NCBI GenBank assembly: GCA_025455015.1
Contig: JALONI010000012.1
Span: 1-45,080, forward strand
Reading direction: 5' to 3'
DNA: 45,080 bases
DNA from: Cyclobacteriaceae bacterium
GTDB taxonomy: Bacteria; Bacteroidota; Bacteroidia; Cytophagales; Cyclobacteriaceae
The notes beneath the pieces were generated by a model. That model was not told where the DNA came from and ran no database searches. It worked only from the letters and a program-made list of their open reading frames with translations. Numbering within the stretch: the first letter of the stretch is position 1; the number at the start of each line of letters is the position of its first letter. Shown piece after piece: positions 43,699-45,080 of the stretch. The position numbers and the translations under genes are program-made.

Positions 43699-45080
43699 AT
43701 GGCGGAGTACAGCAAAGAAGAAATCAGGCGCCTGGAAGAAAAATGGCGTAACCAGTGGAACGAGTGGGGTCTCTACCGCGTGGAAAACGACACCTCCAAA
43801 CCGAAGTACTACATCCTGGACATGTTTCCCTACCCTTCGGGCGCGGGCCTGCACGTGGGGCACCCGCTGGGGTACATCGCATCAGACATTGTGGCGCGCT
43901 TTAAGCGGCTGAAGGGTTTTAACGTACTGCACCCCATGGGCTTTGATGCCTTTGGCCTGCCGGCCGAGCAGTATGCCCTTGAACATGGTGTGCACCCCGC
44001 CCAAAGCACGCAAGAAAACATCGCCAACTTCAAACGGCAGATGGCAAAAATTGGCTTTTGCTACGACTGGAGCCGCGAAGTGCAGACCTGCGATCCGGCT
44101 TACTACAAATGGACACAATGGATCTTTCTGCAACTGTTTGACAGTTGGTTTAACCGCCAGCAACAGAAGGCCGAGCGGATAGGCGACCTGATCACGATTT
44201 TTGAAAAAGAGGGAAACGGGAATCATCCTGTGCCGAATGCCAAATTTACGCTTGACGGCCACCGGGGTCAGCACTTTGATGCAGCCGGCTGGAGGGCGTT
44301 TTCGGAACGGGAAAAGCAGGAGGTGCTGATGGAGTACCGCCTGGCCTACCTGGCCTACACGGATGTGAACTGGTGTGAGGCACTGGGTACCGTGCTGGCC
44401 AATGACGAGGTGATCAATGGCGTAAGCTACCGCGGGGGCTACCCGGTGGTGAAGCGGCAGATGCGGCAGTGGAGCCTGCGCATCACCGAATATGCCGAGC
44501 GGCTGTTGAAGGGCCTGAACGAAATCGACTTTAGCGAATCGTTGAAAGAGATCCAGCGGAACTGGATCGGGAAGAGTGTGGGGGCGTTGATTGAGTTTGA
44601 CCTCACCCCTTACCCCTCTCCGGAGGAGAGGGGAACGTCCATCCCAAACAGCCTTCGAAGCACCCCCCCTTCTCCTGTGGAGAAGGGGAAGGGGGATGAG
44701 GTCCACGCACAGGATTTCATCTTTACCACCAATACAAAAACATGGCAAAGCCTAAAAGAGCATGCACGCGAAAACCGGAAAAATGCAACGGAAGCGGAAG
44801 ACGCTCTTTGGCAAGCAGTGCGAAACAATGCGCTGGGGTTCCGTTTTAGGCGACAGCATGCCATTGGCCGATTCATTGTTGACTTCGTATGCATCGAGAA
44901 AAGGCTGGTGGTAGAAGTAGATGGCCCCATTCACGAGCAACAAATACGCGAGGATGCTGAGCGCACTGAGATACTCCAAAACGAAGGATTTCAGGTGATC
45001 CGCTTTGCCAACGAGGACGTTCTTCAGCGGCTTTCTTCCGTGCTTGAAAAAATTAAAAGTACACTAGTCCTTTCCCCCTC
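43699..45080 (+). CDS. leuS: Leucyl-tRNA synthetase (5' part) interrupted in frame by repeat and nuclease domain
   Basis: The first 460 codons of leuS, running off the window. Residues 1-300 are normal: the ATP-binding signature HVGH (52-55) in [14 protein letters not shown], the [17 protein letters not shown] motif, and [21 protein letters not shown] just before the CP1 editing domain. There, where relatives go on to the threonine-rich FTTRPDT motif of the editing site, residues 302-334 come from a palindromic repeat, 335-344 read [15 protein letters not shown] sequence, and 345-454 form a DUF559 nuclease domain. The frame never breaks over about 480 bases. Whether the LeuRS resumes after the element lies beyond the window. 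Confidence 0.93.
44601..44701. repeat. Double-hairpin palindromic repeat inside leuS
   Basis: Two perfect hairpins: CCCCTCTCC-gga-GGAGAGGGG (44613-44633) and CCCCTTCTCC-tgt-GGAGAAGGGG (44666-44688). They are enclosed by an outer CCTCACCCC (44601-44609) that pairs with GGGGATGAGG at the end (44692-44701). The whole can fold as a three-way structure and is read through in frame as [11 protein letters not shown]...[13 protein letters not shown]. Repeats of this appearance are common in Bacteroidota genomes. Confidence 0.88.
44731..45060 (+). other. DUF559 (Vsr-like) nuclease domain embedded in LeuRS
   Basis: Residues 345-454 of the leuS frame match DUF559/Vsr-like endonucleases: [38 protein letters not shown], then the PD-(D/E)XK-like core FIVDF with Asp395, VVEVDG with Glu406 and Asp408, His412 and [13 protein letters not shown]. 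All core residues are present, so it could be active. It is preceded by the palindromic repeat and followed by CCTTTCCCCCTC, which looks like the start of another repeat arm at the window's edge. No stop or start codon separates it from LeuRS. Confidence 0.85.

Follow-up and report, generated by a model that had tools for sequence, protein, structure and literature searches.

The leuS gene of a Cyclobacteriaceae bacterium, which encodes leucyl-tRNA synthetase (LeuRS), carries a DUF559/Vsr-like nuclease inside its reading frame, and we consider it probable that this insert is a homing-endonuclease-like selfish cassette that is bounded by palindromes, is not spliced, and lives as an internal domain of its host protein. 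The gene reaches the end of the window, i.e. the whole stretch of 45,080 nucleotides that was analysed.

The leuS frame continues through a palindrome-bounded nuclease domain

The frame at 43699-45078 (+) is open for 460 aa from the leuS start to the end of the window, according to the open reading frame listing. A Pfam scan of its protein detected PF00133 at residues 16-149 and PF04480 (DUF559) at residues 352-456, the latter with an E-value of 2.6e-35 and a score of 121 bits against a curated cut-off of 20.6, covering profile positions 3-108 of 109. The initial annotation had described a leuS frame that passes through a palindromic repeat into a complete DUF559/Vsr-like nuclease without a stop, and frame and Pfam agree on this. 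The residues that it had named, D395, E406, D408, and H412, are also present and are D54, E65, D67, and H71 of the nuclease piece P0002 (the leuS frame from residue 342 onwards). The parts of the frame are as follows.

43699..44598, plus strand: N-terminal part of leuS, to strand GALIEF before the editing motif (frame, Pfam, and TIGR00396 profile positions 4-234)
44599..44640, plus strand: left palindrome, in frame, encoding 14 residues (stem 44613-44621/44625-44633, 100% complementary)
44664..44703, plus strand: second palindrome, an inverted copy of the left one, encoding 13 residues (stem 44666-44675/44679-44688, 100%)
44722..45066, plus strand: DUF559/Vsr-like nuclease, Pfam domain 44752-45066, whose N terminus has the FTTxxxxW stretch of the subfamily
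45069..45080, plus strand: first part of the right-hand palindrome, ended by the contig end (remainder on contig C63)

The outer inverted repeat of this cassette pairs 44599-44609 with 44693-44703, and the palindrome arms 44606-44633 and 44667-44694 pair with 82% complementarity. No Met codon lies between leuS and the nuclease domain, and the string FTTNTKT within the insert is the N terminus of the nuclease, not the leuS editing motif.

Because contig C132 of this genome (3.42 Mb in 154 contigs) is exactly 45,080 bases long, the window is the whole contig and its end, which falls in the third palindrome, is the contig end. A search of the same genome placed the remainder of leuS on the minus strand at one end of contig C63 (L010, 274-2334). 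The frame there has 686 aa, is open up to the contig end, and matches TIGR00396 positions 237-842. This frame starts inside the matching hairpin and then runs through GGEVTKSEILTVFTTRPDT, with ILTVFTTRPDT intact; leuS thus resumes in frame beyond the palindrome and through the whole of FTTRPDT, the point that the initial annotation had proposed to check. The join of C132 to C63 is one that we infer; a 3-base overlap of the contig ends would keep the frame and give a 23-base hairpin, the same size, compared by eye, as in the related genome G229. A second intact leuS elsewhere, one of two outcomes that the initial annotation had named as refuting, was sought among the contigs of the window's genome (G000) and not found; weaker leuS-profile matches on C93, C32, and C67 seem to fit related synthetases. 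Likewise, no further leuS was found in 10 of the 12 relatives' genomes searched. The other outcome, an error in the assembly join, is answered by leuS-DUF559 frames that are unbroken on long contigs elsewhere, e.g. on a 492-kb contig of G229. The whole LeuRS, nuclease included, is very likely translated, given that leuS is essential and that the search revealed no second copy.

The insert extends a variable turn beside an intact editing motif

The initial annotation had placed the insert beside FTTRPDT and had concluded that the editing site would be split unless the insert looped out or was removed. The first part stands, as the motif lies just downstream, and the split does not: the insert lengthens a variable turn that immediately precedes the LeuRS editing motif, and FTTRPDT is kept whole. 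From LeuRS structures and the sequence alignment, we take the site to be the turn of a β-hairpin; in the alignment, the corresponding stretch of the solved LeuRS 7NTY is also variable. The comparison of related genomes with and without the insert could be made within genus g1, where carriage is patchy: three of five genomes are filled, and the two empty ones (G144 and G064) have a short turn of 22 and 15 residues between the two strands. Most other empty leuS genes examined have 15-16 residues between WIGKSxGx and FTTR, and a few have 34-45, part of those palindrome-coded. When filled, this stretch measures 147-328 residues in 40 of 43 genes, the loop-size script having left the other three (L001, L044, and L061) unmatched. 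Altogether, the turn is occupied in 43 distinct domains, including that of the Paceibacterota genome L139, which lies outside Bacteroidota and has its insert at the identical LeuRS turn. A second leuS insertion site is the loop before TMPGWAGSSWYF.

In-frame cassettes recur across genomes and host proteins

DUF559 was detected in 116 of 241 genomes of the order, and by hand count at least 41 of the matches listed lie in open frames of ≥800 aa. At least 16 of the 241 genomes, from seven families, have DUF559 in frame in leuS at one of two sites (at least 11 at the window's site and at least 5 at the second loop). The phylum-wide sample yielded DUF559 in 222 of 395 genomes; by hand count, 37 of the 150 matches listed are in frames of ≥800 aa, whose hosts are known as long frames only, and several of these are in one-contig genomes. 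In this sample DUF559 also occurs in frames of >1,100 aa in one-contig genomes. Searching a species-genome collection with an alignment of cassette domains gave 80 named loci with 81 domains: 59 lie within a host frame, 7 at its N terminus, and 4 at its C terminus, whereas 11 are free; this set was not picked by frame, but was ranked by similarity to a seed mostly of in-frame cassettes, and a few of its genomes repeat those of the other set. Long-frame loci among L043-L095 were taken for frame length in the order-level search, and therefore counts over the 154 distinct domains are not prevalences.

The nearest carrier (76% identity) is a Flammeovirgaceae genome, and others belong to Flavobacteriales, Bacteroidales, Prevotella, Chitinophagaceae, and Hymenobacter. 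A leuS cassette is also present in several isolates, namely Marixanthotalea marina, Daejeonella sp. H1SJ63, Hyunsoonleella ulvae, Gillisia marina, and Aequorivita todarodis. Thus, proteins with both a class I tRNA synthetase and a DUF559 domain, which the initial annotation had suggested looking for, exist in many genomes, isolates included. By contrast, we counted 67 DUF559 domain rows on 57 viral contigs, with only two frames of >320 aa, one of them reading as valyl-tRNA synthetase (ValRS). In the contig L233 (IMGVR_UViG_2894185313_000007), catalogued as viral, positions 1-3177 hold a 1,059-aa frame with DUF559 inside an apparent ValRS, which is probably host sequence at a provirus edge.

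Among the distinct domains, we call one internal when at least 90 aa of host frame lie on both sides of it, as is the case for 95 of the 122 domains with a host frame. Internal cassettes occupy 17 kinds of host protein, also in isolates, a cultured carrier for MetH being Flavobacterium cucumis. These are LeuRS, IleRS, ValRS, MetH, methylmalonyl-CoA mutase, GH31, DegT aminotransferase, CoA transferase, MazG, orotidine decarboxylase, MutS, RecJ, a UvrD-like and an AddB-like protein, and three kinds of restriction enzyme. Terminal DUF559 fusions, which may be of a looser kind, were found with PurQ, RecQ, HisD, YgbB, and others. The names ValRS, IleRS, AddB, and PurQ are our readings, where Pfam gives class I synthetase, PDDEXK_1, and GATase_5. 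The hosts form 26 clusters; L082 consists of masked sequence without a host, L201 goes with the Type ISP group, and L176 was separated from the leuS cluster by eye. We note that the cassettes of L062, L066, L077, L080, L081, L070, and L144 lie inside restriction-modification enzymes (Eco57I-like, HsdR, and Type ISP), where the nuclease domain could also be functional.

Internal cassettes keep the active site and commonly lack a start codon

The residues D54, E65, D67, and H71 are kept in all 95 internal and all 32 free domains. Between 40 aa upstream and the first domain residues, Met is absent from 64 of 95 internal and 4 of 32 free domains (present in 31 and 28, respectively). Stems of ≥8 bases occur within 150 nt upstream in 57 and downstream in 47 of the 95 internal domains, compared with 18 of 276 random stretches of the same genes; the remaining 38 have no 8-base stem upstream within that distance. 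The left-hand linkers read LTPxPSPEERG, LPPAPSEGGG, or SPTLSKGEG, peptides from different palindrome phases, which indicates that it is the reading frame that is conserved and not one peptide. Strict frame preservation was rejected: in L043 (G177, 2458-6620), metH runs in frame into the cassette and its remainder continues in a different, overlapping frame, either as a real break (a split metH) or owing to an indel in a G or C run. Further, a stop lies inside the DUF559 domain in at least 3 rows of the order-level search and in 3 of the 150 matches listed phylum-wide. The ends of Flavobacterium metH cassettes are inverted repeats of 27-28 bases that each contain a hairpin. One such metH, L212 (3-2459, from a Flavobacterium MAG), holds two sister cassettes, at the B12-domain linker and in the activation domain; the second of these sites holds other short sequences in L188 and L192.

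The nuclease is related to Vsr and to a homing endonuclease

A profile of the domain alignment matched PDB 3HRL (E 4e-30) and 3R3P, a "mobile intron protein" (E 3e-6), which we take to be I-Bth0305I, an EDxHD homing endonuclease. NCBIfam returned a DUF559 model and, weakly, Vsr; three phage records match the nuclease, one of them (27% identity) annotated as a homing endonuclease. In passages of PMC9403480, a DUF559 gene is placed in the EDxHD homing family. Judged by these matches, the cassette nuclease is akin to Vsr and to I-Bth0305I.

Divergence points to transfer of cassettes between hosts and to selection on the nuclease

To compare nuclease and host divergence, we used cassettes occupying the same site. 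At one leuS site, dS between L057 and L065 is 0.031 for the nuclease against 0.646 for upstream leuS, and between L140 and L153, also at one leuS site, 0.087 against 1.351. The near-identical tract in both pairs is centred on the cassette, a pattern that indicates recent transfer of the cassette into one site after the host genes had diverged. In L057/L065, near-identity reaches some 50-80 bp into downstream leuS, which is weak evidence of co-conversion because that stretch is conserved. Across seven close same-site pairs, pS of the nuclease is below that of the host in all seven, strongly in two only; in the five others it is less diverged by as much as about half (L152/L156 and L062/L066) or slightly (three pairs). 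The nuclease dN/dS is 0.04-0.11 where computable (values with dS >2 being unreliable), and by this measure the nuclease is under purifying selection.

When host-site labels were mapped onto the nuclease tree (107 rows, 15 sites), 33 changes were required compared with 54-64 in 200 shuffles, and 17 compared with 28-41 when the leuS site was set against the rest; shared host lineage is a confounder that contributes to this signal. Strict fidelity of nuclease to site is not supported, as sites are kept more than by chance, yet are also switched. The 33 changes count against strict homing because strict homing would not yield switching.

Alternative explanations

The alternative that survives best is that the palindromes are themselves the mobile units (REP/MITE-like), moved by a transposase in trans, with the nuclease as a passenger or helper between two of them. 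We regard this main rival as rather unlikely. Nuclease-free palindromes, which suggest that the palindromes may have another mover, stand in frame at leuS sites in L112, L114, and L116 (the leuS genes of G020, G036, and G079 being among the examples), at the second leuS site in L085 and L088, and in other genes; Y1 transposases, the enzymes to be expected of a REPIN/RAYT system, occur in 19 of 23 genomes, G000 included. Against a palindrome mover, three cassette holders, G025 (99% complete), G079 (95%), and G170 (79%), gave no match to the Y1 family (E up to 1e-3), and the nuclease retains its active site under purifying selection. Nor is the palindrome an abundant repeat of G000, an idea that was dropped: allowing at most one mismatch gave two matches, both confined to the leuS cassette, and a looser search with 3 mismatches gave one other, weak match. 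The cassette palindrome is common in other genomes, e.g. with 56 matches in G069.

Several further palindromes were noted. Nuclease-free copies stand in frame in L227, L229, L225, L226, and L232, whose hosts resemble, by names given by eye, gcvP, a histidine kinase, murG, a conjugation ATPase, and a Mur ligase. G069 has several palindrome pairs about 127 bp apart, and its locus L213 (878-1500) is a MITE-like copy with paired palindromes, flanked by repeated GGGTAGATTTATAC, that interrupts a Y1 transposase gene. Because the palindromes sit in this larger MITE-like copy, the Y1 gene beside them was dropped as their mobiliser on a reading by eye. A different palindrome, of the CCTGCCTGCCGGACAGGCAGG type, lies nested within the right-hand border of the leuS cassette; two tandem copies of it also lie at 32676-32717 of the window, in frame in a superoxide dismutase gene (32197-32865), to which the pair adds 15 residues (chance expectation, 0.01 matches).

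That the nuclease domains have been domesticated for a job in the host protein or the cell, e.g. in DNA repair or defence, appears improbable. Such a role would agree with the purifying selection and with several hosts that act on DNA (MutS, RecJ, RecQ, UvrD-like, and restriction enzymes), but other hosts are unrelated (LeuRS, MetH, the mutase, and the aminotransferase), carriage of the leuS cassette is patchy within one genus, and a PADLOC defence search with the nuclease gave no match. Less credible still is an intein or a group I or II intron whose motifs are no longer recognisable and which is still spliced out. Nucleases of this fold do occur in mobile introns (3R3P; passages of PMC3943268), but no Hint or intein domain was detected in Pfam scans of 31 proteins (the window's frame and 30 related hosts), no Rfam match reached the gathering score in L001, L010, L133, L140, or L057, and the reading frame stays open across the insert, a feature that an RNA intron could do without. 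Finally, an assembly error that joined leuS to an unrelated nuclease gene, an idea fed by a window that ends in a repeat at a contig end of a fragmented genome, has a negligible chance of being correct and was rejected as a general account, because other species, isolates among them, show the same arrangement without a break on long contigs (L151, L160, L167, and L198).

Discussion

We favour the reading of the leuS insert as a selfish, in-frame cassette that is not spliced. The initial annotation had likened it to a homing-type element with no intein motifs; the nuclease is indeed related to a homing endonuclease and no splicing element was found, and the homing step is one that we infer from this homology and from the discordant pairs. 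Its further suggestion, a selfish, frame-preserving element in an essential gene, gains from the resumption of leuS, the recurrence across genes and taxa, and the two transfer pairs. In the mechanism we propose, the whole LeuRS would be translated with the nuclease displayed on palindrome-encoded linkers rich in Pro, Gly, Ser, and Glu, and the enzyme would stay active. The nuclease would cut leuS alleles that lack the cassette and, occasionally, other sites, and repair templated by the filled allele would copy the cassette into the cut one, as in homing. Because the host protein must still fold, the survivors would mostly be in-frame loop insertions. Harmlessness in frame would thus substitute for the splicing of mobile introns and inteins.

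Several known arrangements come close to this. Inteins with homing endonucleases also place a nuclease in frame inside a conserved gene, whereas no splicing domain was found in the cassette hosts scanned. In fungal mitochondrial rps3, a homing endonuclease is fused in frame to an essential gene, but there the setting is organellar and the nuclease is of another family; we know of no palindromic borders for it. A review attributes the freedom of homing endonucleases to invade conserved genes to their self-splicing partners, and nucleases of this fold occur in mobile introns (PMC3943268). The EDxHD enzyme I-Bth0305I (PDB 3R3P; passages of PMC3943268 and PMC9403480) has a related nuclease (E 3e-6) and is intron-encoded, whereas the leuS cassette is an internal enzyme domain for which no intron or intein was found. 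VsrA of Caulobacter, a DUF559 protein, is held responsible for an SOS response in passages of PMC12907096, which implies that a DUF559 protein can damage DNA in the cell; VsrA is of the same Pfam family, but is described there as a separate host gene and a proposed mismatch-repair endonuclease.

The palindromic borders have their closest likeness in the Rickettsia palindromic elements, which, in passages of PMC2229807, stand in frame in conserved protein genes, with one host protein, Gmk, reported to be translated and active. These and other in-frame bacterial MITEs (105-146 bp) are described there as non-autonomous, with no enzyme of their own. The leuS cassette likewise has palindromic borders that are read in frame in a conserved gene but, unlike those small (about 100-200 bp), enzyme-free elements, has a nuclease between its palindromes. 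We found no description of an in-frame DUF559 insertion into host genes in the open-licence literature. As far as sequence can tell, the leuS element joins two known kinds, being palindromic and in frame, apparently unspliced, and armed with a nuclease. We also put forward, tentatively and as something that could well prove otherwise, that it represents a new, splicing-free class of homing element, in which a nuclease with no start or stop of its own and with palindromes that double as linkers lives as a parasitic domain in a loop of its host enzyme, homes to the empty allele, and then enters loops of other enzymes across phyla.

Overall, LeuRS and 16 further kinds of protein harbour a nuclease of homing kinship, in isolates and metagenome genomes alike, and no splicing element was found. 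If the cassette moves itself, the passage of a mobile gene through protein-coding sequence would become testable, and its sites would chart, from natural cases, which loops of essential enzymes tolerate insertions. It would then also suggest a source of new multidomain proteins and be a candidate engine for the small in-frame palindromic repeats of bacterial genomes.
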